A DNA stretch of 64,000 nt, taken from contig NZ_AP029018.1 in NCBI RefSeq assembly GCF_037076525.1, forward strand, positions 1,116,001 to 1,180,000. The letters run 5' to 3'. Shown here one piece after another: positions 46,966 to 60,208 of the stretch. Below the pieces are notes generated by a model. It had not been told where the DNA came from. It did not search any database and was given only the letters and a program-made list of their open reading frames with translations. Source of the DNA: Selenomonas sp. TAMA-11512 (lineage in GTDB: Bacteria > Bacillota > Negativicutes > Selenomonadales > Selenomonadaceae). A program made the position numbers and the translations under genes. The first letter of the stretch is position 1. Each line of letters begins with the position of its first letter.

Positions 46966-47125
46966 GGAAGCACTGATACATGCAGCACAGCCATCTTGGC
47001 GTATCTTTTCCGCCCTCTCTTTGTCGGCAAATCCTCCACAGAGCACCACTCTGCGTTCGGTTTGCCTCCTTGATAGAACGAAAAATCTACACCAATCTGA
47101 CCGACTTCATTTTATCAGCGATTCC
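46966..47125 (+). repeat. MITE-like palindromic repeat, copy 1
   Basis: A 160-bp element beginning GGAAGCACTGATA and ending TATCAGCGATTCC. It is closely similar over its whole length to the reverse complement of copy 3 and more distantly to copy 2. Its centre holds GGCAAA (47021 region) facing TTTGCC around a CAGAG-CACCA-CTCTG hairpin, and the outer parts are imperfect inverted repeats. Flanks are TTTA and TTAG, not a clean duplication. It lies between the extended -10 box and ispH, with no open frame of note. With this element counted, nothing else is recognised between plsC and ispH. Confidence 0.88.
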
Positions 47126-47193
47126 TTAGAAGACATGTTTCTCATGTGAAGACTGCAGCGGCTTGTAGTTCATATAGTACTGGTGGTAGATAT

Positions 47194-48024
47194 ATGGAAG
47201 TGATCTTGGCAGAATCCTTAGGATTTTGCTACGGTGTCAAGCGAGCGATAAAAATTGCTCGGGAAAGTGCTTCTGCCGATGGTACTGCCTGTACGCTGGG
47301 GCCTATCATTCACAATCCTCAGATGGTTGCACAGCTTGCGGAGGAAGGTATCGGAAAGGTGGATGATCTGTCTGAACTGGACGCAGGCAGAATTATCATT
47401 CGCTCTCACGGGGTGGGGCCCAACATCTATGAGTCAGCGGAAGAAAAGGGATTGGAGCTTGTCGATGCGACATGCCCGCATGTCCGCAGAGCGCAGATGG
47501 CAGCCCATGAACTTGCCGAGGAGGGTTACCGTGTCGTCATCATTGGCGAAAAACGGCATCCTGAGGTGAAAAGCATTGTCGAATGGTCTGGCGACCAAGC
47601 CGTCGTCGTGGAGACGGAAGAGGAGGCAGAGGCTCTGGGGAGCATCGGCCGACTTGGCGTTGTGGCGCAGACGACTTTTTCCGGGGAGAAATTCAAGAGC
47701 ATTATAGCGATTCTCTTGGATAAATCGAATGATGTTCGTATTCTGCGCACCATTTGCAACGCGACGGATCAGCGGCAGACAGCTGCGCTTTCGCTTGCGG
47801 GTGAAGTGGATTTGATGCTTGTCATCGGCGGCAAGAACAGCGCGAATACGACGCGTCTCGCACAGTTATGTGCAATGAAGTGCCAAACCTATCATATCGA
47901 GACTGCGGCTGAGCTGCAGGACGAATGGTTTGATAAAATCAATAAAATTGGTATCACAGCCGGGGCATCGACGCCGGACTGGGTTATCAAGGAGGTATAT
48001 CAAAAGTGCAAGAACAAGACATGA
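47194..48024 (+). CDS. ispH: 4-hydroxy-3-methylbut-2-enyl diphosphate reductase
   Basis: A 276-residue iron-sulfur enzyme, the last step of the MEP isoprenoid pathway. The three cluster cysteines are C12 (GFCYGVKRA), C94 (DATCPHV) and C188 (TICNATDQRQ). H40 and H72 (SHG) and the HPE-like RHPEV line the active site. I chose ATG at 47194 because it gives the standard N-terminus MEVILAESLGFCYGV; upstream codons run back towards the repeat. The ribosome-binding site (GGTGGTAG) is weak. It overlaps rpsA by 19 bases. Confidence 0.95.
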   Translation: MEVILAESLGFCYGVKRAIKIARESASADGTACTLGPIIHNPQMVAQLAEEGIGKVDDLSELDAGRIIIRSHGVGPNIYESAEEKGLELVDATCPHVRRAQMAAHELAEEGYRVVIIGEKRHPEVKSIVEWSGDQAVVVETEEEAEALGSIGRLGVVAQTTFSGEKFKSIIAILLDKSNDVRILRTICNATDQRQTAALSLAGEVDLMLVIGGKNSANTTRLAQLCAMKCQTYHIETAAELQDEWFDKINKIGITAGASTPDWVIKEVYQKCKNKT

Positions 48025-49139
48025 TGAGTTTATTGGAAGAACAAGAGCGTGCTATGCAGGACGTTCGCGAGCATGACGTTGTCAAGGCAACGGTCGTTGC
48101 GGTTGAGGATGGTGTTGCCTATGTCAACATCCAGGGCCTCAAGGCGGATATCCCTGTACCGAAGCGTGAGCTGGCACAGCCCGAGCCGGATTCCGCCCGC
48201 GACGTTGTCAAGGTGGATGATGAGCTTGAGGTTTTCGTTGTCTCGCTTGGCGGCGAGAACGGCGCTACCGTCTCCAAGGTTCGTGCGGACCGCATGGTCG
48301 CATGGAAAGAGCTTGAAGCTCTGATGGAGGAAGGCAAGACGGTTCAGGCGAAGGTAACGCAGGTTGTCAAGGGCGGTCTTGTTGCTTCTGTCAACGGTCT
48401 TCGCGGGTTCATTCCGGCTTCGCAGATGGAGCTTCACTTCGTCAAGGATCTTTCCATTTACGTGGATCAGGTAGTCGAAGCGCTTCCAATCGAGATCGAT
48501 ATCCGCAAGCAGCGTCTTGTTCTCTCGCGCCGTTCGCTCCTTGAAACAGAGCGTGAGAAGAAGCAGGAAGCTCTGTTTGAAACGCTTGAGGCGGGTCAGG
48601 TTCTCAAGGGCACGGTAAAGCGCCTTGTCGACTACGGCGCATTTATCGATATCGGCGGCGTGGACGGTCTTGCACATATCTCGGATCTTTCCTGGAGCCG
48701 TGTTAAGCAGCCGGCGGATGTCCTTACGGTCGGTCAGGAAGTCGATGTGTTTGTCAAGACATTTGATCCCGAGACGAAGCGCATCTCCCTTTCCATCAAG
48801 GATACGATGCGTGATCCGTGGCTGGATCGTGCAGAGCGCTATGCAGAAGGCAACCACATTAAGGGAAAAATCATTAAGCTGACAGATTTCGGCGCTTTCA
48901 TGGAAATTGAGCCGGGCTTTGATGGTCTTATTCCTATGGGTGAGCTTGCCGAGCGCCGCATTGCGCGAGCCGATGAGGCGGTCCATCTGGGCGATATCGT
49001 TCTCGTCAAAGTGCTTCACATCGACATGAAGCGTAAGCGCATTTCGCTTTCCATTACAAAGGCGGATGCGAATGCGGAGGTTGCAGAGTCTGCGTACATC
49101 GATACACCGCTTACGGGTCAGGCTGAGGAAGAGGCTTAA
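48006..49139 (+). CDS. rpsA: Ribosomal protein S1-like protein with four S1 domains
   Basis: A 377-residue RNA-binding protein with four S1 domains (roughly 24-92, 108-173, 192-262, 279-348); typical blocks are VKATVVAVEDGVAYVNIQG, GGLVASVNGLRGFIPASQ, VDYGAFIDIGGVDGLAHISDLSW and KLTDFGAFMEIEPGFDGLIP. It is shorter than the six-domain E. coli S1. The GTG start at 48006 follows GGAGGT (47991-47996), which lies inside ispH in the -1 frame relative to it. In some Clostridia IspH and S1 are one fused protein; here they are separate. Its TAA stop is part of the repeat target site TTAA. Confidence 0.93.
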   Translation: MQEQDMMSLLEEQERAMQDVREHDVVKATVVAVEDGVAYVNIQGLKADIPVPKRELAQPEPDSARDVVKVDDELEVFVVSLGGENGATVSKVRADRMVAWKELEALMEEGKTVQAKVTQVVKGGLVASVNGLRGFIPASQMELHFVKDLSIYVDQVVEALPIEIDIRKQRLVLSRRSLLETEREKKQEALFETLEAGQVLKGTVKRLVDYGAFIDIGGVDGLAHISDLSWSRVKQPADVLTVGQEVDVFVKTFDPETKRISLSIKDTMRDPWLDRAERYAEGNHIKGKIIKLTDFGAFMEIEPGFDGLIPMGELAERRIARADEAVHLGDIVLVKVLHIDMKRKRISLSITKADANAEVAESAYIDTPLTGQAEEEA

Positions 49140-49300
49140 GGACGCACGGATAAATTCAGCACCACCATCTTGACGCATCCTTTTTCTCGTGCTTTGTAGG
49201 CAAATCCTCCACAGAGCAAGCCTCTGCGTCCGGTTTGCCTCCTTGTTCGGACGAAAAAGCTACGCCATGATCTGACGGACTTCATTTTATCAGCGATTCC
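49140..49300 (+). repeat. MITE-like palindromic repeat, copy 2, abutting the rpsA stop codon
   Basis: A 161-bp element beginning GGACGCACGGATAAA and ending TTTATCAGCGATTCC, the same orientation as copy 1. It is flanked on both sides by TTAA (49136-49139 and 49301-49304), a probable 4-bp target duplication; the left TTAA includes the rpsA stop codon. The centre again has GGCAAA ... CAGAG-CAAGC-CTCTG ... TTTGCC. The loop differs from copies 1 and 3 while the arms are conserved, so selection or recent origin preserves pairing. No terminator is seen between rpsA and this element. Confidence 0.88.
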
Positions 49301-49418
49301 TTAATTTTGCAGCAGCTGCCATCCTACGGATTGGCTGATTTTGGGGCGTTGCCAAGGAGATATCCTCTCCGATGGCGGCGCCTCTAATTTATTATTTGTA
49401 AGAAAGGAGGCGATCACA

Positions 49419-50810
49419 TTGTCTTACGGCGAAATCAGCCACATATACGAAGGAAGCCTGGCTGAGGAAATCGGGCTTGTTGCAGGAGATAAGATTGTTT
49501 CGGTCAATGGTGAGAAGCTTAGAGATATCATTGATTTGAGTTTTGCTATGGCCGAGGAAGAGATAGAAATGCTCATCGAACATGCGCATGGGGAACAGGA
49601 GCTTTTTGCGTTTGATAAGGATATCGATGAGGAATTGGGCGTGGAATTTCGCTCCGCCGTATTTGACGGAATTCGTCGTTGTGCAAACAATTGCTGTTTC
49701 TGCTTTGTTGATCAGATTGCGCCGAACATGCGCAACAGCTTGTCTGTCAAGGATGATGATTATCGTCTCTCTTTTCTGTACGGCAACTTTGTGACATTGA
49801 CCAACTTGGCGGATGCGGATTTCAAGCGTATTGCCAAGTATCACCTGTCGCCTCTGTTTATATCCATACAGGCGACGAATCCTGAGCTCCGGGCGAAATT
49901 GCTTCGCACACCGCGTGCAAGGCTTCTGGCAGAACAGCTCAATCGTCTTGACGCAGACGGCATAGAGTATCATACACAGATTGTGCTATGTGCGGGGTTA
50001 AACGACGGAGAGGAGCTTGCCCGCAGCATTCGGGATGTATTGGCGAGAAAGCCGCATGCGCAGTCTTTGGCGATCGTACCCGTAGGCATTACGAAGCACA
50101 GGCGCGACACGGCTCCGCTGGACATGTTTGATGCGGCCGGCGCTGCAGCTGTCATTGACATGGTGGAGCCGCTGCAAAGACAGCAGCGTGAGGAGTCGGG
50201 ACATACATTCATATATCTCGGGGATGAATTCTACTTCTTAGCCAACCGGGAACTTCCGCCGACGGAATACTATGACGGGTTTCCGCAGCTCGATAACGGA
50301 ATCGGACTTGCACGTAATTTTTTGGAAAGCTGGGAAGAGGAAGAAAGAGCTGCGCAGCTGTCTGCGCCTGCGGCGCAAAGTAAAGAAATCGTCCATATCG
50401 ATGTCTTATCCGGTACGGCGATTGCGCCGATGATGGAGCGATTAGCAGCGATGGTTGCGCAAGATCATGTACGCGTACGCATTTTACCTGTCGTGAATGA
50501 GTACTTTGGAGTGACGGTGAATGTATCCGGTTTGTTGACCGGTGAGGATATTCTCCGGACACTCGAAAATGCAGGCGGAGCGAGAGATATTTTGCTTTTT
50601 CCGGAAAGCTCTCTGCGCGCAGGTGAAAATATTCTGCTGGACGATATGTCCTTAGAGGATATACAGCGGATATATCCCCGTACACGCATAGAGACGGTTC
50701 AGAGCGGACGAGATTACTATCGTGCGCTGACGGATATCGAGAACTATCGCGGGCGTGGAGGCGAGCAAGCCTTTTATACATGGCAGAGCAACGCGGGATA
50801 TACAAAGTAA
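49419..50810 (+). CDS. DUF512 protein: PDZ plus radical-SAM-like domain
   Basis: A 463-residue protein of the family widespread in Clostridia and Negativicutes beside der. An N-terminal PDZ-like domain (SYGEISHIYEGSLAEEIGLVAGDKIVSVNGE) is followed by a radical SAM motif C88-x3-C92-x2-C95 (RRCANNCCFCFVDQ) and the C-terminal DUF512 domain (HIDVLSGTAIAPMMERL ... NVSGLLTGEDIL ... LLDDMSLEDI). Function unknown. The start is TTG at 49419, behind AGAAAGGAGG; the frame is open further upstream towards 49341 but without a site. It follows copy 2 of the repeat and precedes der by 15 bases. Confidence 0.88.
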   Translation: MSYGEISHIYEGSLAEEIGLVAGDKIVSVNGEKLRDIIDLSFAMAEEEIEMLIEHAHGEQELFAFDKDIDEELGVEFRSAVFDGIRRCANNCCFCFVDQIAPNMRNSLSVKDDDYRLSFLYGNFVTLTNLADADFKRIAKYHLSPLFISIQATNPELRAKLLRTPRARLLAEQLNRLDADGIEYHTQIVLCAGLNDGEELARSIRDVLARKPHAQSLAIVPVGITKHRRDTAPLDMFDAAGAAAVIDMVEPLQRQQREESGHTFIYLGDEFYFLANRELPPTEYYDGFPQLDNGIGLARNFLESWEEEERAAQLSAPAAQSKEIVHIDVLSGTAIAPMMERLAAMVAQDHVRVRILPVVNEYFGVTVNVSGLLTGEDILRTLENAGGARDILLFPESSLRAGENILLDDMSLEDIQRIYPRTRIETVQSGRDYYRALTDIENYRGRGGEQAFYTWQSNAGYTK

Positions 50811-50825
50811 GGAGGGACATACAGC

Positions 50826-52148
50826 ATGGCAAAGCCGATTGTGGCGGTCGTCGGCAGACCGAATGTCGGTAAATCGACACTGTTTAATCAGATAGGAAAT
50901 CGCCGCGTGTCCATTGTGGACGATTTTCCGGGTGTAACGCGTGACCGTATCTATATGAACGCAGAGTGGCTCAATCGCGAGTTTACGATGATTGATACGG
51001 GAGGAATCGAGCTCGAAACATCGGATCAGCTTCTCACAGCGACGCGTGCACAGGCGCATCTTGCCATGGAAGAGGCGGATGTCATACTCTTTGTCGTCGA
51101 TGTCCGTGCAGGGCTTACGCGTGATGATGAGGAGGTCGCGAAGCTCCTTCGCGCAACGAAAAAGCCTGTTCTGCTTGCGGTCAACAAGGTGGACAGTCCG
51201 AATCAGGAGTTGGATGTCTATGAGTTTTACAGCCTCGGTCTGGGAGATCCCATTCCAATTTCAGCGACGAACATGCTGAATATAGGCGATCTGCTGGATG
51301 CCGTCGTTGCAGCCTTTCCGGAGGATACAGGCGAGGATATCGAGGAAGACGTCATCAGCATTGCGGTCATCGGCCGACCGAATGTAGGCAAGTCGTCTCT
51401 CGTCAACCAGCTTCTCGGCGAAGAGCGCGTCATTGTCAGCGACGTTGCCGGTACGACACGCGATGCCATCGATACGCACTTTGTCAAAGATGATATTAAG
51501 TACACCTTGATCGATACCGCAGGGATGCGCAGGAAGTCCAAGATTGACATTCCCGTGGAGCGATACAGTGTGATGCGCGCACTGCGTGCGGTAGAGAGGG
51601 CGGATGTCGTCCTCATGGTCATTGATGCCGTCGAAGGTGTCACGGAGCAGGATAAGAAGATTGCGGGTTATGCGCATGAGTCCGGACGAGGTGTTATACT
51701 CGTCGTCAATAAGTGGGATATTTACCCGGATAAGGATGATAAATCGACGCTTCGTTTTACGGAGACGCTGCGCAGTGAAATCGGGTTTCTGCAGTTTGCA
51801 CCGGTTCTCTATGCGTCGGCGCTCACGGGACAGCGTGTCCAGCGCATTACAGAGCTTGTCAAGTATGTGGCGGATCAGCATGCGATGCGCATACAGACAA
51901 GTGTCTTGAATGAGCTTCTGCGAGACATGATATCAATCAATCCTCCGCCGGCGCATAAGGGGAAAAAGCTTAAGATATACTTTATGACGCAGGCGGATAT
52001 CAAACCTCCAAAGTTTATTCTCTTTGTTAATGACCCTGAACTTGTGCATTTCTCCTATGTGCGGTATATAGAAAATACGCTGCGTGAGAATTTCGGTTTT
52101 GAGGGGACTCCGCTGAAGATTATTGTACGCGGCAAGGAGGAGGATTAA
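50826..52148 (+). CDS. der: Ribosome biogenesis GTPase Der (EngA)
   Basis: A 440-residue GTPase with two tandem G domains, unique to this family. Domain 1 has GRPNVGKST, DTGG and NKVD; domain 2 has GRPNVGKSS, DTAGM and NKWD. A C-terminal KH-like domain (about 355-440) follows. It matures the 50S subunit. The ATG follows AAGGAGGGACATACAGC. Confidence 0.97.
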   Translation: MAKPIVAVVGRPNVGKSTLFNQIGNRRVSIVDDFPGVTRDRIYMNAEWLNREFTMIDTGGIELETSDQLLTATRAQAHLAMEEADVILFVVDVRAGLTRDDEEVAKLLRATKKPVLLAVNKVDSPNQELDVYEFYSLGLGDPIPISATNMLNIGDLLDAVVAAFPEDTGEDIEEDVISIAVIGRPNVGKSSLVNQLLGEERVIVSDVAGTTRDAIDTHFVKDDIKYTLIDTAGMRRKSKIDIPVERYSVMRALRAVERADVVLMVIDAVEGVTEQDKKIAGYAHESGRGVILVVNKWDIYPDKDDKSTLRFTETLRSEIGFLQFAPVLYASALTGQRVQRITELVKYVADQHAMRIQTSVLNELLRDMISINPPPAHKGKKLKIYFMTQADIKPPKFILFVNDPELVHFSYVRYIENTLRENFGFEGTPLKIIVRGKEED

Positions 52149-52150
52149 GA

Positions 52151-52729
52151 ATGCTGTTTTCCCTGCTTTTTGCCTATTTCCTGGGAGCCGTGCCGAACGG
52201 ATTATGGCTGTGCCGACTGCTCTATAAGAAAGACATACGTAAGTACAACAGCCACAATATCGGAGCAACGAATGTCTGGAGAACATTCGGCAAGCTGCCC
52301 GGAATCATGGTATTCCTTCTTGATTTTTTGAAAGGGGCATTGGCCGTATATCTTGCTTCTCATCGCGGCGGAACACCGGAAGCAATGGTGGCGGCTGGGA
52401 TAGCGGCGATGCTGGGGCATTCCTTCTCTATATTTCTGAAGTTCAAAGGCGGCAAGGGAGTTGCGACAGGCCTGGGGGTCATTGCCGTCTTGATGCCCTT
52501 AGTGACCGGCATCGTGTTTCTTGTATGGTTTGCCATTGTCTATAGGACACGGTATGTCTCTCTCGGCTCGGTTGTATCTGCCGCGCTTGTGCCGATGCTT
52601 GCATATCTGTTCGACGCACCTCAAATTTATGTGATACTTGGTGCGGCTGCCGCCGCTCTTGTTATCGTGCGACATCGAGCGAATATTGCCCGTCTCATGC
52701 ACGGCTCTGAAAATAAGGTGAATTGGTAA
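52151..52729 (+). CDS. plsY: Glycerol-3-phosphate acyltransferase PlsY
   Basis: A 192-residue membrane protein with about five transmembrane helices. It transfers acyl from acyl-phosphate to glycerol-3-phosphate. Conserved cytoplasmic motifs are YKKDIRKYNSHNIGATNVWRTFGK, the second HSFSIFLKFKGGKGVATGLG and the third IVRHRANIARLMHGSENK. It starts two bases after der; der-plsY is a usual pair. Confidence 0.95.
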   Translation: MLFSLLFAYFLGAVPNGLWLCRLLYKKDIRKYNSHNIGATNVWRTFGKLPGIMVFLLDFLKGALAVYLASHRGGTPEAMVAAGIAAMLGHSFSIFLKFKGGKGVATGLGVIAVLMPLVTGIVFLVWFAIVYRTRYVSLGSVVSAALVPMLAYLFDAPQIYVILGAAAAALVIVRHRANIARLMHGSENKVNW

Positions 52730-52744
52730 AAGTTCTTTTAAGGC

Positions 52745-52774
52745 TGGACATCTGTATAAGAAAAATGCTAAAAT
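52745..52774 (+). promoter_or_regulatory. Promoter for pheB-hom-thrB
   Basis: TGGACA (52745-52750), an 18-bp spacer and TAAAAT (52769-52774) come shortly after the plsY stop. Transcription would begin near 52781, downstream of the first in-frame ATG (52773), which supports the later pheB start. The leader is too short for a T-box. Confidence 0.65.
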
Positions 52775-52814
52775 GACGTCAGAGTCATATCTGTGTGGAA
52801 TGGAGCAGTATACA

Positions 52815-53333
52815 ATGACAAAGGACGAAAAGGAGAAGCTCAAAGCCCGCGCTGAAATACGAGCGGCAAAGGCGCTCCAAAAGGCCAATGCAAAGGCAAA
52901 AAGCGGATTCTTTCTTGTACGTGAAGAGATTCTTCCGGAGGCAATCAAAAAGACGATACGCGTGAAGGAGTGCCTCAAGCAGGGAGAAGTGCGAACGATC
53001 AATGAAGCGGTTGCTCTTCAAAAACTGTCTCGAAGCGCTTACTATAAGTACAAGGACTATGTGTTTCCGTTTTATGAGATCAGCCAAAATAAGATTATTA
53101 CGCTGACGCTTCTCTTAGAGCACAAGCAGGGGATTCTTTCGAGTGTGCTCAATGCGATTTCCGATGAGGGCGGAAATATCCTTACAATCAATCAGGGGAT
53201 TCCCTTGCAGGGCGTCGCGAACGCCACATTCTCGATTGAGACAAAGAATATGACGGTGGAACTTGAGTCGTTATTGGATAAATTGCGCAATCTGAAAGGT
53301 GTCAAGCGTCTGGAGATTGTAGGGCAGGAATGA
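52815..53333 (+). CDS. pheB: ACT-domain protein PheB (UPF0735)
   Basis: A 172-residue regulatory protein. The N-terminus is a Lys/Ala-rich helix (TKDEKEKLKARAEIRAAKALQKANAKAK), longer than in B. subtilis PheB. Then comes FFLVREEILPEAIKKTIRVKECLKQGEVRTINEAVALQKLSRSAYYKYKDYVFPF, resembling a helix-turn-helix, and a C-terminal ACT domain (ITLTLLLEHKQGILSSVLNAISDEGGNILTINQ) that would sense an amino acid. The ATG at 52815 has GGAG nine bases upstream. It lies 13 bases before hom, so threonine or phenylalanine control is plausible. Confidence 0.88.
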   Translation: MTKDEKEKLKARAEIRAAKALQKANAKAKSGFFLVREEILPEAIKKTIRVKECLKQGEVRTINEAVALQKLSRSAYYKYKDYVFPFYEISQNKIITLTLLLEHKQGILSSVLNAISDEGGNILTINQGIPLQGVANATFSIETKNMTVELESLLDKLRNLKGVKRLEIVGQE

Positions 53334-53346
53334 GAGGGAGAATAGT

Positions 53347-54645
53347 TTGAAAGAGATAAAGATCGCTCTTTTGGGATCGGGGACGGTCGGGTCCGGTGTC
53401 CTTGAGGTTTTGAAGTGCAATGCAGAGGATATCGCAAGGCGAAGCGGAGCTCGAATCCTTGTTGAAAAAGTCCTCATTCGTGATGCCAACAAAGCGCGTC
53501 CGCATCTTTCTGCGTATAAGACGACAACGGATATAGAGGATATCCTGAAGGACGATTCGATTTCCATTGTCGTTGAGCTGATGGGCGGAGTTACTCCCGC
53601 AAAGGATTACATGCTTCGTGCGTTAAAGGCCGGCAAGCATGTGGTTACGGCAAATAAGGATGTAATCGCGGCACATGGGGAAGAGCTCTTTGCGGCAGCC
53701 AAGGAGAATCACGCAGACATTCTCTTTGAAGCCAGTGTAGGCGGCGGGATTCCGATCATAACGCCGCTTAAGACCTCTCTTGCCGGAAATAAGATCACAG
53801 AGATCATGGGCATTGTCAACGGTACGACGAATTACATGCTCACAAAGATGACCGAAGACGGATCGAGCTATGACGAGGTGCTTAAAGAAGCGCAGGAAAA
53901 GGGATATGCCGAGGCAAATCCGACGGCTGATGTGGATGGTCTGGATGCTGCGCGCAAGGTTATGATTCTGTCCTCTATCGCCTTTAATACGAAGATCGAT
54001 TTCGATGATGTGCCCGTTGAGGGGATTCGGCACATAACGCCAAAGGATATTGCCTATGCGAAAGAGCTGGGCTACGTCATCAAACTGCTGGCGATCGGCC
54101 GTGATTTGGGAGAGCAGGGGCTTGATATTCGCGTGCATCCCGTATTCCTGCCGAAAGCGCATCCGCTTGCATCGGTGAATGATGTTTTCAATGCGATTTT
54201 TGTCCGGGGAAATGCCATCGGCGAGGCTATGTTCTACGGACGAGGTGCCGGATCGCTGCCTACAGCGTCGTCTGTCGTAGCGGATATCGTCGAGGTGGCT
54301 CGGGATATTTGTGCCGACGTTTTTGGACGCCATACGCGTATTCGTACGGAGGCAAAGAAGCTTTGTCCGCTTGCGGAGACGAAGTCATCGTATTATGTTC
54401 GTCTCCTGGTCAGTGACCAGCCCGGTGTTTTGGGCGCCATTGCAACTGCCTTCGGTGAACAGGGCGTAAGCTTGAAGTCCGTTATTCAGACACGCCGTGA
54501 AAAGGATCGGGCAGAGATTGTTGCCGTCACGCACTGCGTGCGGCATGCGAAGCTGCAGGCTGCAGCAGGAGTTCTGCAGAGTCTGCCGGTCGTTACGGAG
54601 ATTCGAAGCATGATTCGTGTGGAGAATGAGCAGGGGGGCGACTGA
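53347..54645 (+). CDS. hom: Homoserine dehydrogenase
   Basis: A 432-residue enzyme of the threonine/methionine branch. KIALLGSGTVGSGVLEVL binds NAD(P); VTANKDVIAAHGEELF, EASVGGGIPIITPLK, GIVNGTTNYMLTKM and GYAEANPTADVDGLDAARK are catalytic blocks. The C-terminal ACT domain (about 350-430) suggests threonine feedback. The start is TTG at 53347 after GAGAGGGAGAATAG. It is one base from overlap with thrB. Confidence 0.96.
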   Translation: MKEIKIALLGSGTVGSGVLEVLKCNAEDIARRSGARILVEKVLIRDANKARPHLSAYKTTTDIEDILKDDSISIVVELMGGVTPAKDYMLRALKAGKHVVTANKDVIAAHGEELFAAAKENHADILFEASVGGGIPIITPLKTSLAGNKITEIMGIVNGTTNYMLTKMTEDGSSYDEVLKEAQEKGYAEANPTADVDGLDAARKVMILSSIAFNTKIDFDDVPVEGIRHITPKDIAYAKELGYVIKLLAIGRDLGEQGLDIRVHPVFLPKAHPLASVNDVFNAIFVRGNAIGEAMFYGRGAGSLPTASSVVADIVEVARDICADVFGRHTRIRTEAKKLCPLAETKSSYYVRLLVSDQPGVLGAIATAFGEQGVSLKSVIQTRREKDRAEIVAVTHCVRHAKLQAAAGVLQSLPVVTEIRSMIRVENEQGGD

Positions 54646-55574
54646 TGCAGACGAGAACGGTGCGTGTACGCGTGCCGGGTACAAGTGCGAACTGTGGTCC
54701 CGGGTTTGATGCGATTGGTGTTGCATGTACGATTTATAATGAGTTGGAGCTGGCATTGACGAGCGAGCCTTCGCTGACGATCGAGATCGAAGGTGAGGGC
54801 GCGGAAAACATCCCGAAAGATGAACGCAATATTGTCTGGAAGTCAATCGTACATCTTTTGCGTCGGGCAAAACGGGCAAAAGAGTATCGCGGTGCCGTCA
54901 TTCATATGAAGAATGATATTCCTCTGTCGCGAGGTCTCGGAAGCAGTGCGGCTGCGATTGTTTCCGGATTGAAGGCTGCAAATATTTTGCTGGATGAGCC
55001 TTTTACACGGCGCGACCTTCTCGACATGGCAACGGAGATCGAGGGACACCCGGACAATGTCGCGCCGGCACTCTTCGGAGGCTTTACCGTCAGCGTGACC
55101 GGGAAGCGGCGTGTGGATTGTTTTGCCTTTCAATCACGCCTGCCGCTGAAGCTTGTTGTTGCAGTGCCTGATTTTCCGCTGTCGACGAAGATGGCAAGAA
55201 GTGTTCTGCCGGCGGAGGTGCCGATGCAGGACGCCGTTTATAATGTCGGACGTGCCGCGATGCTTGTGGCGGCCTTATCCAAAGGGAATCCGCATTTTCT
55301 GCGCACGGCTTTTGACGATGCTCTGCATCAGCCGTATCGTGAGAAGCTCATCCCCGGTATGCGGGATGTCTTTCGCGCCGCAAAATCCGCCGGTGCCGTC
55401 GGGGCGACGCTGTCCGGTGCCGGACCGTGCCTGATTGCCTTTACTCTGGAGCATGAGGATAAGGTGGGGGCGGCTATGGTGAGGGCCTTCGAACGGCATG
55501 ATGTGCATGCGGAGGCGCTGCAGCTGGAGATTGATACAACGGGGGCGGAAGAGATCATCGGTTCGTCAAAATAG
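54645..55574 (+). CDS. thrB: Homoserine kinase
   Basis: A 309-residue GHMP kinase making O-phosphohomoserine for ThrC. VRVPGTSANCGPGFDAIGVA, the ATP loop IPLSRGLGSSAAAIVSGLKAAN and LSGAGPCLIAF are the three GHMP motifs. Its ATG overlaps the hom stop by one base. thrC lies far away at 16318. Confidence 0.96.
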   Translation: MQTRTVRVRVPGTSANCGPGFDAIGVACTIYNELELALTSEPSLTIEIEGEGAENIPKDERNIVWKSIVHLLRRAKRAKEYRGAVIHMKNDIPLSRGLGSSAAAIVSGLKAANILLDEPFTRRDLLDMATEIEGHPDNVAPALFGGFTVSVTGKRRVDCFAFQSRLPLKLVVAVPDFPLSTKMARSVLPAEVPMQDAVYNVGRAAMLVAALSKGNPHFLRTAFDDALHQPYREKLIPGMRDVFRAAKSAGAVGATLSGAGPCLIAFTLEHEDKVGAAMVRAFERHDVHAEALQLEIDTTGAEEIIGSSK

Positions 55575-55588
55575 GAGGGGAATGGCTC

Positions 55589-56824
55589 ATGACGGAGACC
55601 GCCTTTATCGAGGCTATACGGAGCATGGGCGGGACCGTATATCTCGTTGGAGGATATGTGAGAGACACACTCCTGGGCCGCAAGCCGAAGGATCGGGATT
55701 ATGTCATAACGAACATCGAGGAGGCGGCGTTTTGTCGCCTTTTTTCATCAGCGGAAAAGGTGGGGAATCATTTTCCTGTCTACCTGCTTCCCATCCGGGG
55801 CGAGATGCGTGAAGTGGCTTTTGCGCGCAGGGAAAAAAAGACGGCGAGCGGATACAGAGGCTTCGCGGCGCATTTCAGTCCGGAAACAACGATAGAAGAG
55901 GATTTGGCTCGTCGCGATACAACGATGAACAGCATTGCACTGCGTTTGCCGGACAGAGAGATGATCGATCCGTTTGGCGGGAAACAGGATATTGAGAGAG
56001 GGATCATTCGAGCTGCAACAAAGCACTTTGCAGAGGATCCCGTGCGCGCTCTTCGCGCGGCAAGACAGGCTGCGGAATTGGGATTTACGATAGAAGCGGA
56101 AACAGTGAACGCCATGAGGTCGCTGCGAGGAGAACTGAGGAGCGAGCCGCAGGAGCGCATATTCGAGGAGCTGAAAAAGGCGCTGGCTGCGCCCAAGCCG
56201 TCGGTCTTTTTCTCCGCACTCCTAGAGGCAAACCTTTTAGATATCGCTTTTCCGGAATTATATGCGCTTCACGGCAGACCTGAAATACTTGCATTTCATC
56301 CGGAAGGGGATTCCTTTCGGCACACGATGCTCGTTCTTGATGAAGTTGCTGCACGCACGGAAAATACTATGGTGCGCTTCGCGGCGCTGGTCCATGATAT
56401 CGGAAAAGGGCGGACTCTCGAGGAGATGCTGCCGCATCATTACGGGCACGAATTGCGCGGACAAGACGCGCTTCTGGAATGGAATGAGCGGCAGAAACTG
56501 CCGCGTGAATGGCTGCAGGCAGGACTTTTCGTCGTTCAACAGCACATGCGTGCGGCCCGGTTGAAAAAGCCGGGCAAGATTGTCGATCTGTATACGGCGA
56601 TTGCGCGCAGCGCGCTGGATTTCAAGGGATTTACAGATATCATTGCGGTGGATTATCATGGTTTGCCGTACTATTTGGCGGATTCTGATCTCTATGAGCG
56701 GGTTATGAAGGTTCACGCAAAGAATCATCCGGACGATTTGGCCGGTGAAGCGGTTGGCGCATGGCTGCGCGGCCAACGCATACATACATTGCGGCGGCTG
56801 TGCGGTGAAAGAAATCCAGTGTAA
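55589..56824 (+). CDS. cca: CCA tRNA nucleotidyltransferase / poly(A) polymerase family with HD domain
   Basis: A 411-residue enzyme. VYLVGGYVRDTLLGRKPKDRDYVI carries the GG and DxD catalytic motifs; RRDTTMNSIALRL and DPVRALRAARQAAELG are the B and C motifs. An HD domain follows (RFAALVHDIGKGRTLEEMLPHHYGHE). It adds or repairs the tRNA 3' CCA end; with the HD domain the 2',3'-phosphatase activity of E. coli Cca is possible. The ATG follows AGGAGGGGAATGGCTC, 14 bases after thrB. Confidence 0.9.
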   Translation: MTETAFIEAIRSMGGTVYLVGGYVRDTLLGRKPKDRDYVITNIEEAAFCRLFSSAEKVGNHFPVYLLPIRGEMREVAFARREKKTASGYRGFAAHFSPETTIEEDLARRDTTMNSIALRLPDREMIDPFGGKQDIERGIIRAATKHFAEDPVRALRAARQAAELGFTIEAETVNAMRSLRGELRSEPQERIFEELKKALAAPKPSVFFSALLEANLLDIAFPELYALHGRPEILAFHPEGDSFRHTMLVLDEVAARTENTMVRFAALVHDIGKGRTLEEMLPHHYGHELRGQDALLEWNERQKLPREWLQAGLFVVQQHMRAARLKKPGKIVDLYTAIARSALDFKGFTDIIAVDYHGLPYYLADSDLYERVMKVHAKNHPDDLAGEAVGAWLRGQRIHTLRRLCGERNPV

Positions 56825-56910
56825 AGAGGGACGTTCTGTCTGTCAAGAGCTACGGGAGCGCATAGTGTTCCGGTCTGTCATCGTAAGGATGGCGGAGTGG
56901 GAGGATTTCG

Positions 56911-57258
56911 ATGGATCGGAGAAACGTGCAGAAAAGAGAGAATAGAGTAGAGAAAAAGCGCTTGTTTGAATGCGATATGGTATTGGAGATCATATCTGTT
57001 TACTGCCATCGAAAGCATGGCACGCAAAAGGGCGAACTTTGCTCGGATTGTCGGGCGCTTTCACTTTATGCAAAGGATCGCATAGAAAAGTGCCCCCGCA
57101 TGGCGGAGAAGACCTTTTGCAGCGCGTGTCCCATTCATTGCTACGACCGGGAGAGGCGGGCCAAAATTCGTGAAGTCATGGGCTATGCGTCGCCGTGGAT
57201 GCTCATCTATCATCCGATGCAGTTCCTTCGCCACGTGTGGTACAGTTGGAAAACGTAG
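56911..57258 (+). CDS. ygbA: YgbA-family (nitrous oxide-stimulated promoter) protein
   Basis: A 115-residue Cys-rich protein of the YgbA_NO family. YCHRKHGTQKGELCSDCRALSLYAKDRIEKCP ... KTFCSACPIHCYDRERRAKIREVMGYASPWMLIYHP matches the family pattern of CX2C-like pairs and a conserved HC. E. coli ygbA is induced by nitric oxide through NsrR; the molecular role is unsettled. Metal or Fe-S binding through the Cys/His set is an inference. The ATG follows GTGGGAGGATTTCG. It is not in a nitrosative-stress operon here. Confidence 0.82.
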   Translation: MDRRNVQKRENRVEKKRLFECDMVLEIISVYCHRKHGTQKGELCSDCRALSLYAKDRIEKCPRMAEKTFCSACPIHCYDRERRAKIREVMGYASPWMLIYHPMQFLRHVWYSWKT

Positions 57259-57323
57259 ACAGTCATGCAGAAATAGCGTAGAATGAAGACGGGTTTTTGA
57301 TATATGCAGGGAGGGTTTATGCC

Positions 57324-57665
57324 ATGCAGGAGGAAGAATCTCGCGTACGCGTGATGTCCACCGGTGAAAAGAACGGATATCAAGGGCTTACGGTCAATGA
57401 AGCGGGGGGAAGCGACAGCGAAAGCACGCACGAGGATTATGGCAGCCGACAATACGGTTTTCGTGCGGGCGCGTCGAATAGCCGATTCGGTAAGGTATAT
57501 ACATTCGGTTCCTCAAGCAGCAGTTGGCTGACAAGGATGGCGATCGTCATCATACTGGCGGCGCTCCTTACGTTTTTCCTGTTTGTAGCGCTTCCGGTGG
57601 CTTTGATTGGCGCGGCGGTCGGAGGGATTATCTACATCGTGCTCCATCTCCTGCAAAAGAGATAG
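57324..57665 (+). CDS. Small protein with Ser/Gly-rich head and C-terminal membrane helices
   Basis: A 113-residue protein that I do not recognise. The first 65 residues are polar, acidic, then Ser/Gly/Arg-rich and probably disordered (GGSDSESTHEDYGSRQYGFRAG). The rest is hydrophobic: two segments around MAIVIILAALLTFFLFVALP and ALIGAAVGGIIYIVLHLL, ending QKR. The ATG at 57324 follows GGGAGGG at eight bases. It ends three bases before the convergent tmcAL stop. A C-tail-anchored or hairpin membrane topology is likely; function unknown. Confidence 0.55.
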   Translation: MQEEESRVRVMSTGEKNGYQGLTVNEAGGSDSESTHEDYGSRQYGFRAGASNSRFGKVYTFGSSSSSWLTRMAIVIILAALLTFFLFVALPVALIGAAVGGIIYIVLHLLQKR

Positions 57666-57668
57666 TTT

Positions 57669-58898
57669 TCAGGGGAGGCAAATGGGGGATTGGAGATAAT
57701 CTTGCCGCAGTGTGCCGATGGCGGGCTTTGACAATGCCTGCAGATCATTGGCAAGGAGATCGTAGCGGAGCATTTTTTGGAGTGCGGTTCTTTGACTTGT
57801 CTGCAAGAGTTGTTCTTCGGAGAGCTCTGTAGCTACACGGCTGATGAGTGGGAGACGGCACTCTTTTCTGATGCGCGTGAGCACATGCGCGCTTTTTTTG
57901 AATGCGAGAGGCCGCACATAGAGCGGGAGGGCACGATCGAATTCCGCGATGTCCTCTTTTGTCAGGCGGAGCAGGATATAGCTGAGCAGGCGCTGCACAC
58001 GGCTATAGGGGAATCGCCGGTTTTGCACATAGTCTGCGAGTTCCTCATAGCTGTTCGATTCCTTGGCAGCTCGGCGCAGACGATGCTCAATGCCTTCAGA
58101 GACGCCGGCAAGTTCGGAAAGCTCGGCGTCGCTGCGGGTCAAAATCTCCCGGATGAGAAGCCTGTGCAGTGTGTCCATGGAGGGATATCCTTCCGCGGCG
58201 GAAGCCTGCAAGGCATGACAGCTCTCCGACGGGACGGCCGTCCGAATCGCATCCCACATAGGCGGCGAAGCCATACAGGCGCGACGAATGGCAGTCGCAC
58301 TGGATATATCTCGCTGTAGTTTCGTCTCATTATGTGCGGCGGATTTGCGCAGGAGCGCAATAGGCTCTATAGGGCTTTGCAGGTGATGTAGGCTGCGCAG
58401 ATACTCGACCGCCAAAATGTTATTGGGTGTGCGAAGGGCATCTTCGTCCATGAGGGACTGACCGGATATAGCTTTCGACACGGCGACGGCATACGCATCA
58501 CCTGCTCGGATATGACGCTGTATCTCTTTCTGCGTGGAGGCGTTTTCCAGAGTGGAAGCAAGAGCGGAAAGTATCGAAGGATTGCTTTCCGCTCCGAAGG
58601 CGACATAGTCCACGCAGCCGAGACGATGCAGAAGGGCAATACCTCCGCGGGCGAAGTCCTGTGCGGAGCGCAATGCGAAAACGGCAGGCAGCTCCGCTAC
58701 GAGGTCTGCGCCGTGCATGCAGGCGATGGAGGCTCTTGTCCACTTGTCCAGGATGGCAGGCAGTCCGCGCTGCGTGAAGGCACCGCTCATGACGACGACG
58801 ATGTGCGCGGTCGGATATCGGTGACGGACTTCCTGGATTTGGTATATATGTCCGTTGTGAAAGGGGTTATATTCTGCTATGACTCCGATAATAGGCAT
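57669..58898 (-). CDS. tmcAL: tRNA(Met) cytidine acetate ligase (TmcAL/YlbM family)
   Basis: A 409-residue nucleotidyltransferase-like enzyme that in B. subtilis makes N4-acetylcytidine at the wobble position of elongator tRNA(Met) from acetate and ATP. The start PIIGVIAEYNPFHNGHIYQI carries the HxGH motif, and ERYAPAVFA-type AELPAVFALRSAQDFARGGIALL and SNPSILSAL follow. I chose ATG at 58898 behind GAGGAG on the minus strand; the open frame extends to 59030 only through the repeat element. It is divergent from mnmA, another wobble-base enzyme. Confidence 0.92.
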   Translation of the reverse strand: MPIIGVIAEYNPFHNGHIYQIQEVRHRYPTAHIVVVMSGAFTQRGLPAILDKWTRASIACMHGADLVAELPAVFALRSAQDFARGGIALLHRLGCVDYVAFGAESNPSILSALASTLENASTQKEIQRHIRAGDAYAVAVSKAISGQSLMDEDALRTPNNILAVEYLRSLHHLQSPIEPIALLRKSAAHNETKLQRDISSATAIRRACMASPPMWDAIRTAVPSESCHALQASAAEGYPSMDTLHRLLIREILTRSDAELSELAGVSEGIEHRLRRAAKESNSYEELADYVQNRRFPYSRVQRLLSYILLRLTKEDIAEFDRALPLYVRPLAFKKSAHVLTRIRKECRLPLISRVATELSEEQLLQTSQRTALQKMLRYDLLANDLQALSKPAIGTLRQDYLQSPICLP

Positions 58899-58928
58899 GG
58901 CGGACTCCTCTGATGTAATGATTATATA

Positions 58929-59088
58929 GGAAGCACTGATAAAATGAGGTCTGTCAGATTGGTGCAGATTTTTCGTCCTGTCAAGGAGGCAAACCGGACG
59001 CAGAGTGGTGCTCTGTGGAGGATTTGCCAACGCAGAGAGGGCGGAAAAGATGCGCCAAGATGGCTGTGCTGCATTTATCAGTGCTTCC
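58929..59088 (-). repeat. MITE-like palindromic repeat, copy 3, between tmcAL and mnmA
   Basis: A 160-bp element in opposite orientation to copies 1 and 2. The ends GGAAGCACTGATAAA and TTTATCAGTGCTTCC are perfect 15-bp inverted repeats, flanked by TATA on both sides (58925-58928, 59089-59092). The interior pairs imperfectly (GGTGCAGATTTTTCGTCC with GGCGGAAAAGATGCGCC) around the GGCAAA/TTTGCC and CAGAG/CTCTG core. It is the cleanest and probably youngest copy. It fills most of the tmcAL-mnmA intergenic region, so it may carry or separate their promoters. Confidence 0.9.
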
Positions 59089-59143
59089 TATAGATTGTAG
59101 CAGAGTTTTTGCGTGAGATAAAGATTGGATTTGGTGATATATT

Positions 59144-60208
59144 TTGGCAAAGAAGGTTGCCGTAGCGATGAGCGGCGGTGTGGACAGTTCTTTGACAGCG
59201 ATGCTTCTCCAGGAGGAAGGCTATGAGGTCAGCGGCATGACGATGCTGCTTTTTGATACATATGATGCGGACGGGAATATCATCGAGCCGCAGTCGGTTG
59301 TTGACGCAAGACGTGTGGCGGAGCAATTGGGAATACCGCATCGAGTCGTCGATCTGCGTGATCGATTCAAGGCACGCGTGGTGGACTATTTCCTCCACGA
59401 ATACGGCGTGGGACGAACGCCGAACCCCTGTGTCATGTGCAATCGACAAGTGAAGTTCGGCGGACTTTACGAGTCTGCGCAGGAAGCCGGGATTGACCTC
59501 GTTGCAACGGGGCACTACGCGCGCATTGAGCAGCTGGAAAACGGAACGTATGCTGTGCGAAAGGGCATGGATATAAGAAAAGATCAATCGTATGCACTTT
59601 GCCGACTGACGCAGGAGCTCCTGGCGCACTTCATCACCCCGCTGGGCGGCTTGGAGAAGACAGAGACGAGGGCTTTGGCGAAGCAGTATGGACTGATCGT
59701 CGCGGATAAGCCGGAGAGCCAGGAAATCTGCTTTGTGCCAAAGGATGACTACAAAGCCTATCTCGCGCATCATGCGCCGGAGATGCTGGAGGCAGGCGAT
59801 ATCGTGGATCTGAACGGCAGAGTGCTGGGGACACATCAGGGTGTGCCGTTCTATACCATCGGACAGAGGAAGGGGCTTGGCATCGCGGCGGAGCATCCGC
59901 TCTACGTTGTTGGTCTGGATGCGGAGAAAAAGCGTGTCGTCGTTGGTGCCAATGCGGATCTCTTTGTGAAGGGACTTACAGCGACAGATGTGAATTGGCA
60001 GCAAGGAGAAAGAACGGCACCCTTTGAAGCCAATGTCAAGATACGGTATGGCAATCGTGAGACAAAAAGTCGAATCGAGCCGTTGGATGGCGGGCGGATA
60101 CGGGTGATTTTTGCAGAACCGCTTCGGGCGGCGACTCCTGGACAATCGGTTGTGATGTACGAGGGAGATATGCTCCTGGGAGGAGCGTTTATCGAGAGGG
60201 CTCTATAA
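59144..60208 (+). CDS. mnmA: tRNA-specific 2-thiouridylase MnmA
   Basis: A 354-residue enzyme thiolating U34 of Lys, Glu and Gln tRNAs. VAVAMSGGVDSSLTAMLL is the PP-loop; GRTPNPCVMCNRQVKF and SQEICFVPKDDY carry the two catalytic cysteines; ATGHYARI and KDQSYALCRL are also typical. The start is TTG at 59144 after GGTGAT; no better start gives the family N-terminus. It lies 55 bases after the repeat element. Confidence 0.95.
   Translation: MAKKVAVAMSGGVDSSLTAMLLQEEGYEVSGMTMLLFDTYDADGNIIEPQSVVDARRVAEQLGIPHRVVDLRDRFKARVVDYFLHEYGVGRTPNPCVMCNRQVKFGGLYESAQEAGIDLVATGHYARIEQLENGTYAVRKGMDIRKDQSYALCRLTQELLAHFITPLGGLEKTETRALAKQYGLIVADKPESQEICFVPKDDYKAYLAHHAPEMLEAGDIVDLNGRVLGTHQGVPFYTIGQRKGLGIAAEHPLYVVGLDAEKKRVVVGANADLFVKGLTATDVNWQQGERTAPFEANVKIRYGNRETKSRIEPLDGGRIRVIFAEPLRAATPGQSVVMYEGDMLLGGAFIERAL

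Follow-up and report, generated by a model that had tools for sequence, protein, structure and literature searches.

The interior of a miniature inverted-repeat transposable element (MITE) is usually treated as filler. Bacterial type II MITEs of IS5-family origin are short and non-coding, share their ends with an insertion sequence (IS), resemble that IS in these ends only, and are flanked by 4-bp YTAR duplications—the target duplication of the IS5 group. Here, we describe a repeat family of Selenomonas sp. TAMA-11512 that has all of these traits and of which an earlier note had pointed out three copies of about 160 bp in the window, that is, the whole stretch of 64,000 nucleotides that was analyzed (positions 1116001–1180000 of a genome of one contig, NZ_AP029018.1, with 2,593,422 bases). 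In contrast to the known type II MITEs, the interior of this element is a folded core under compensatory change across the class Negativicutes and beyond, which is found between different ends.

Structured MITE-like repeats are already known—namely bcr, ERIC, and YPAL—from papers that are represented here, like all sources cited, by excerpts. The bcr1–bcr3 repeats of the Bacillus cereus group are likewise high in copy number, MITE-like, and often located in untranslated regions, and bcr10 and bcr18 have a conserved structure (PMC3446304, PMC6542083). However, they belong to one species group and a TTTAT-associated mechanism, whereas the duplications of the present family are 4 bp long and YTAR; this distinction is drawn from their description, not their sequence. 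ERIC and YPAL/RU-2 of enterobacteria are dispersed palindromes of 127–168 bp with long stem-loops, but have TA duplications and an enterobacterial range (PMC2759123, PMC2267715), and one printed RU-2 sequence (PMC2759123) is without the tip motif of the present core and has a branched fold. Neither a folded core under different ends nor a multi-phylum range is described for bcr, ERIC, or YPAL in these excerpts. REP repeats with their RAYT transposases are dispersed extragenic palindromes as well, yet of 20–40 bp and with another transposase (PMC3733652); the letters GTAG and CGTC inside the present tip are paired and are not terminal tags. IStrons also unite a folded RNA with DNA-transposon mobility, but as group I introns combined with an IS (PMC4227781), whereas the core described here consists of a single hairpin and shows no sign of catalysis. 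The Chunjie MITE of Geobacter uraniireducens (PMC10969869) is multi-copy in Geobacter, where the present core also occurs; known here by description only, it could be a member of the present family. In the excerpts of two structured-RNA surveys (PMC8632094, PMC6429828), mobile or repeat candidates are mentioned as a class and the present family is not met. No description of it was found in the open-access literature searched, most subscription papers lying outside that literature.

Covariation of the folded core

The interior of the element is a folded module kept by compensatory change—a part that is conserved while the ends change. Both strands of 59 copies from the organism's own genome and of 31 copies from other genomes were folded, and in 90 of 90 cases the lower energy is that of the same strand, the one with GGAAnCGCTGATAAAATGA in the copies of this genome (hereafter, the folded strand). 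Mean fold energies for the folded and the other strand are −74.3 versus −44.2 in the own copies and −79.5 versus −54.9 in the others, of which three (L040_1755, L041_1755, and L059_1501) are not a clean single hairpin. The asymmetry is also seen with RNAalifold on 28 copies of less than 90% identity, with −54.0 on the folded strand and −8.4 on the other.

The alignment A1 (36 sequences) gives a consensus of 57 base pairs. Its cells are paired to 94.3% (84.5% when shuffled), changes on both sides are found in 38 of the 57 pairs (16.8 when shuffled), and 178 cells are double changes (54.6 when shuffled); 0 of 500 shuffles came as high, all six slid versions are far lower, and 248 G.U cells stand against 38 A.C cells. 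Since the structure had been derived on the folded strand, the count was repeated on 41 non-redundant copies outside the model. In this set—whose alignment is fitted to the model and leans towards it, and some of whose copies share their genome of origin with sequences of the model—91.8% of cells are paired (62% when shuffled), 626 cells are double changes (shuffled 173, maximum 215), and 55 of the 57 pairs have double changes (shuffled 43.5, maximum 50). Among pairs that are most often Watson–Crick, 146 G.U cells stand against 47 A.C cells. From these 41 copies, as well as from a set of 65 copies from outside the class discussed below, opposite-strand rows and copies at least 80% identical to a kept one were removed; the 65-copy set is also without rows shorter than 110 nt.

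Copies within the class are mostly 156–162 nt long and keep the same loop order, with extremes of 186 nt (L214) and 150 nt (L277). By eye, the internal loops include a tandem G.A of the form 5'-AGAU/AGAU at two places about ten bases apart. Within the class, the folded single strand is thus the selected form, a conclusion that is well supported. That this strand would be RNA is suggested by the preference for G.U over A.C, and RNA appears likelier than single-stranded DNA.

Range of the core and its different ends

A calibrated covariance model (R1) finds the core in 82 of 189 genomes and 20 of 30 genera of the organism's taxonomic family, and in 111 of 380 genomes, 31 of 102 genera, and ten families of Negativicutes; both searches were run with strict filters, at most 15 and 7 candidates being scored per genome, respectively. 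Deeper scoring of 21 genomes gave 99 matches in G048, 44 in G110, 43 in G006, 42 in G013, and 41 in G132, and deeper scoring of 17 genomes gave 121 in G282, 75 in G280, 43 each in G252 and G255, and 30 each in G244 and G326; the other genomes of both sets have fewer, some only one.

The ends around this core differ between genomes. Ends of the GGGCGTGTTGATTAA type enclose it in G132, G065, G064, and G071, where five of the seven copies seen are flanked by TA and TA, and still other, mutually complementary ends occur in G110, G146, G070 (L211), and G336, the last from another family. Among 15 copies with ends other than the GGAA type, the 2-bp flanks agree in seven (shuffled mean 5.0, maximum 9), and flanks of 3 or 4 bp agree in none; because the 2-bp identity lies within the shuffled range and nothing longer is seen, target duplications are not established for these copies. 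Further elements with GGGCGTGTTGATTAA-type ends, 109–286 bp long, are present in G132 and G065, and some of them fold around parts of the core. A transposase for these ends was not found: the one long candidate fetched (L313, 1369 bp) was rejected as a partner IS, as it holds a DOC-family gene and no other inside open reading frame (ORF) of at least 100 amino acids. Here (L313:1083-2451; G132:C91:10882-12250), GGGCGTGTTGATTAA-type ends surround a 134-aa ORF of a DOC-family toxin (PF02661, TIGR01550), which hints that toxin–antitoxin cargo could be moved by ends of this kind as well.

Outside Negativicutes, the core was traced by its tip. The tip pattern GGCRTAGCNNNGCTAYGTCGAGG occurs in at least 120 stretches across the named genome collection, compared with a handful of chance matches expected in its 257 billion bases, as estimated from base composition. 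Among the matches listed, tip loci come from Geobacter and relatives, Desulfosarcina, Desulfobulbaceae, Myxococcales, Nitrospira, Nitrospinota, Gemmatimonadetes, Lysobacterales and other gammaproteobacterial metagenome-assembled genomes (MAGs), an alphaproteobacterial MAG, Acanthopleuribacter, and Selenomonas. At E ≤ 0.01, R1 matches 117 of the 120 listed loci and 105 of the 108 listed loci outside Negativicutes. For the loci listed, 79 matches outside the class reach at least 40 bits, with a best score of 86.1 in Desulfobulbaceae; a gammaproteobacterial MAG reaches 81.2, Nitrospinota 73.9, and Lysobacterales 51.9.

The 65 non-redundant copies from outside the class, drawn from 80 of the 120 listed tip loci and likewise aligned by a fit to the model that leans towards it, repeat the pattern of covariation: 90.2% of cells are paired (57.1% when shuffled), 1082 are double changes (shuffled 339, maximum 392), and 54 pairs have double changes (shuffled 46.8, maximum 49). 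Among pairs that are most often Watson–Crick, 190 G.U cells again outnumber 86 A.C cells. Several Desulfobulbaceae-type copies appear, by eye, to have longer terminal repeats beside TA-containing triplets.

A conserved neighbor gene that could hint at a function was not found among the proteins near the tip at the 120 listed loci, where the largest cluster covers 11 loci; its members and the cluster that follows in size look, by eye, like transporter and signaling proteins. The viral contig collection holds 0 exact tip matches, and plasmid and phage records gave no blastn match to one copy from genus g9. At its gathering score, Rfam 15 has no match in the 64-kb window and finds only tRNAs at 11 cross-phylum loci; at five loci of the class, its sole match over the cut-off is a 6S RNA, which does not overlap the element. 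One element copy in G024 is adjoined by such a 6S RNA gene (RF00013, L052:1242-1422).

Evidence for mobility, the partner insertion sequence, and the window copies

In the genome of TAMA-11512, a search with the first window copy gave at least 41 matches at E ≤ 1e-3, with 40 of 135 first-look candidates scored and window copy 2 absent from the resulting matches. A pattern for the right end, allowing two mismatches at most, matches 80 times forward and 62 times in reverse (the first ~100 of these 142 being listed), while its reversed control has no match in either direction. On the genome stretches fetched, nhmmer finds 93 distinct match pieces, in which 266-bp variants count as two pieces each, and 60 of them span the model. 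The proposal of a multi-copy family made in the earlier note, which had called for a consensus search and a copy count, is hence borne out with at least 60 full-length copies. Being about 160 bp short, without coding capacity, present in 60 full-length copies in the fetched stretches, and bounded at both ends by inverted repeats of the type GGAAnCRCTGATAAA, the family has the build of a MITE. Deletion derivatives of 38–61 bp and one tandem pair are also found in the genome, together with four variants of 266–267 bp (G000:C1:133141-133407, 622895-623160, 1912801-1913066, and 2328368-2328633), in which about 106 extra hairpin-forming bases lie inside the core and the outer part of the fold is kept. 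A 922-bp stretch between element-type ends, with TTAA on both sides, is located at G000:C1:2533769-2534690.

Exact 4-bp flanks are found in 25 of 59 full copies of this genome (one of the 60, under 60 bits, was dropped), compared with 7.9 on average and at most 15 across 2000 re-pairings, and the preferred target is YTAR. For copies with GGAA-type ends in other genomes, exact 4-bp duplications occur in 32 of 53 (chance mean 6.0, maximum 13), a count that seems to include the shared insertions of L040/L041 (at two places) and of L045/L046 twice over. Relatives provide sites with and without the element. Upstream of ispH, G055 reads CTAG-element-CTAA (L223) where G106 has a single CTAA (L226), and G111 (L227) has, by eye, a lone right end. 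In G119 (L229), a copy lies at the stop codon of rpsA and represents an insertion independent of window copy 2; no copy at this place was found in the other 13 searched genomes of its genus, and the fetched rpsA loci of four further genomes, two each from genera g30 and g18, have none either. The earlier note had suggested looking for empty sites in relatives and had named as counter-evidence a lack of further copies, a lack of such sites, or a position conserved in all relatives, the last as the mark of a fixed cis-regulatory structure; none of the three is observed. Given the target duplications and the empty and filled sites at these two loci, the position is not fixed.

The note had also proposed a search for an IS with matching ends, and such IS elements exist in sister genomes. 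The transposase protein is found in 20 of 189 genomes of the taxonomic family searched. Six IS elements of 1235–1247 bp (L066–L070 and L085) have ends that fit GGAAnCRCTGATAAA exactly, save for one mismatch at one end of L066, L067, L068, and L085; four of them have open frames of 343–350 amino acids, and the frames are shorter in L069 and L085. Against NF033581 (IS5 family, cut-off 140), the transposase of L066 (332 aa) reaches 309.3 bits, and it also matches PF01609 and PF05598. The flanks of the IS elements are mostly YTAR-like, and the two flanks differ in five of the six copies. In blastn comparisons with the three window copies, the terminal 15–16 bases align and all other alignments span 9–16 bases at E ≥ 0.039; beyond the ends, the MITE and the IS have no similarity above chance, which places the family among the type II MITEs as defined in PMC10969869. 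In the organism's own genome, the PF01609 profile finds four transposase stretches, two of which (L063 and L061) adjoin ends that match the MITE end, both incomplete. One MITE copy is situated inside an incomplete IS5-family transposase gene (L063:1009-2017; G000:C1:1829733-1830741), with TTCA as both outer flanks. Judged from sequence, mobility as DNA by an IS5-family transposase is a well-supported prediction. The idea of a non-autonomous element moved in trans through an IS whose ends match hence gains from copy number, duplications, empty sites, and the IS5-family elements with the same ends, with the movement itself following as a likely consequence; what it had missed is the strand-specific folded core in the interior.

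The three window copies lie where the earlier note had placed them, and the covariance model, run on the 64-kb window up to E 10, recovers exactly these places and, on the opposite strand, the same three again. Copy 1 (46966..47125, plus strand, 160 bp) lies between a plsC-like gene and ispH and is flanked by TTTA and TTAG, an imperfect duplication; its folded strand is minus, with 171.0 bits against 41.8 on plus, and its tip hairpin (47026..47066, minus) reads GGCAAA..CAGAG-loop-CTCTG..TTTGCC on plus. Around this copy, 0 internal promoters were found (0.7 expected). Copy 2 (49140..49300, plus strand, 161 bp) directly follows the stop codon of rpsA, and its folded strand is also minus (132.3 bits, 22.4 on plus; tip hairpin at 49199..49239, minus). 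Its left TTAA duplication (49136..49139) includes the TAA stop codon of rpsA, whose ORF ends at 49139, and the right one is at 49301..49304. Copy 3 (58929..59088, minus strand, 160 bp) is inverted and intergenic, ahead of a plus-strand gene at 59144; here, the folded strand is plus (169.4 bits, 51.4 on minus), the tip hairpin is at 58988..59028 (plus), and TATA duplications lie at 58925..58928 and 59089..59092. The duplications of copies 2 and 3 are exact, and the perfect 15-bp terminal repeat ascribed to copy 3 is present as GGAAGCACTGATAAA. The conserved core arms that had been noted are there as well, although they turn out to belong to a single hairpin that spans the element over its full length on one strand. 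The rpsA stop codon was hit independently in two genera, at 49136-49140 of the window (copy 2) and in L229; as YTAR targets can contain TAA or TAG, an insertion at a stop codon can leave the protein intact.

Explanations and their meaning

We assign a probability of roughly three in four to the reading that the family is a MITE moved in trans by an IS5-family transposase and carries, between varied ends, a module of about 130 nt that folds as a single strand, likely RNA. A transposase supplied in trans would recognize the 15-bp ends GGAAnCRCTGATAAA and insert the element into YTAR, duplicating 4 bp; ends, targets, and partner are observed and make such movement probable. The module between the ends would work as a single strand, most likely as RNA transcribed from outside. 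Covariation establishes its structure as a single extended hairpin whose tip and internal loops are conserved; by eye, several of these loops are tandem G.A. Inherited with the element, the module is enclosed in other genera and phyla by terminal repeats of other kinds, which might result from an exchange of ends. The folded transcript could then engage a widely conserved host factor, perhaps RNA polymerase or a ribonuclease, such that insertions in transcripts are tolerated.

Several observations weigh against this reading. Only incomplete transposases of the matching type were found in the organism's own genome, and a partner IS was found for GGAA-type ends only. In 59 copies outside the class, flanks are identical over 2, 3, and 4 bp in 6, 1, and 0 cases, compared with 3.8, 1.2, and 0.2 when shuffled, and there is no excess of duplications. 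The lean of the 41- and 65-copy alignments towards the model and the genomes shared between the 41 copies and the model belong here as well. Around copy 1, two terminator-like sites were found (0.3 expected), one of them on the tip as read on the plus strand; such a site on the other strand could point to a quite different role. The 60 full copies show little preference in placement, with 26 in the same and 28 in the opposite orientation relative to the gene 5' of the folded strand and 33 and 24 relative to the gene 3' of it. As there is no clear orientation bias, placement lends no support to a role in neighboring transcripts, and co-transcription with neighbors was rejected as the cause of the strand bias. 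Finally, folding with energy parameters for DNA favors the same strand in 90 of 90 copies, and there is no bias relative to the direction of replication, with 32 versus 28 of the 60 copies.

Since the strand preference is the same with DNA parameters, the fold might also act as single-stranded DNA, extruded or folded during replication or transfer and bound by a recombination or replication factor. Integron attC sites and single-strand origins are recognized in this way as folded single-stranded DNA, and copies without a clear orientation to genes are not what a transcript role predicts. Nevertheless, replication-coupled folding was rejected for want of a replication bias, and in its ends, its target duplications, and its partner IS the element bears the marks of a DDE transposase, an enzyme type understood to act on double-stranded DNA. 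We therefore regard this alternative as unlikely and retain RNA as the probable form of the module.

A somewhat smaller chance is given to the view that the matches outside Negativicutes are a different family, with a common small motif as the tip and any long hairpin accepted as the rest by a permissive model. These loci were picked by an exact 23-base tip pattern, which alone is worth about 24–30 bits (e.g., L376 and L374), and three listed tip loci have no model match (L327 and L335 from Acanthopleuribacter, L408 from Gemmatimonadetes). Among the loci listed, Gemmatimonadetes and the alphaproteobacterial MAG score 23–26 bits and Nitrospira 25–36, so that the membership of these three groups is uncertain—their scores hardly exceed that of the selecting tip itself. 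Against this view stand the 79 listed matches of at least 40 bits, which reach 86.1 bits over model positions 1–159, and the succession of stems and loops, which is the same in most of the matches that were folded. As for permissiveness, 100 kb of E. coli gave no R1 match up to E 10. Two 20-kb stretches, one in and one beside the window, served as a further control, and the second gave one match at E 5.6, a 64-bp remnant supported by nhmmer.

An ordinary type II MITE, whose palindrome is a by-product of its terminal repeats, whose interior has no function, and whose strand bias is a mutational or sampling effect, would account for the typical size, ends, duplications, and deletion derivatives, and the model was indeed built on the better-folding strand. 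However, double changes in 38 of 57 pairs are far above the shuffled and slid controls and are seen again in the 41 and 65 copies outside the model, and most copies of the class keep their length and loop order, which is not expected from decay; covariation outside the training set largely refutes this explanation, which is very improbable. A fixed, immobile cis-regulatory RNA of particular genes would suit the structured, covarying core and the several copies beside stop codons, but is refuted by the empty sites in relatives, besides the target duplications and unrelated neighbors, and can practically be dismissed.

That the hairpin of this MITE, probably an RNA module, recurs in distantly related bacteria with different ends around it suggests a mobile structured nucleic acid that is so far undescribed. 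More broadly, and tentatively at slightly under even odds, an RNA or single-stranded DNA core could be widespread in several phyla, captured repeatedly between the ends of different transposons and spreading as MITEs because its fold influences a conserved host factor in a way that helps either the element or the host. An interaction with such a factor is the remaining idea that fits the multi-phylum range, if only as a guess; at the same level of conjecture, it might concern the copies whose transcription runs in the folded direction, or else be exerted at the family's source copies. If the fold is functional, tens to more than 100 dispersed copies per genome in many genera would be candidate functional sites that Rfam 15 leaves un-annotated in the stretches scanned, and selfish DNA would spread a folded module among distant bacteria. 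Why a transposable element keeps a strand-specific structure would thereby become a testable question.

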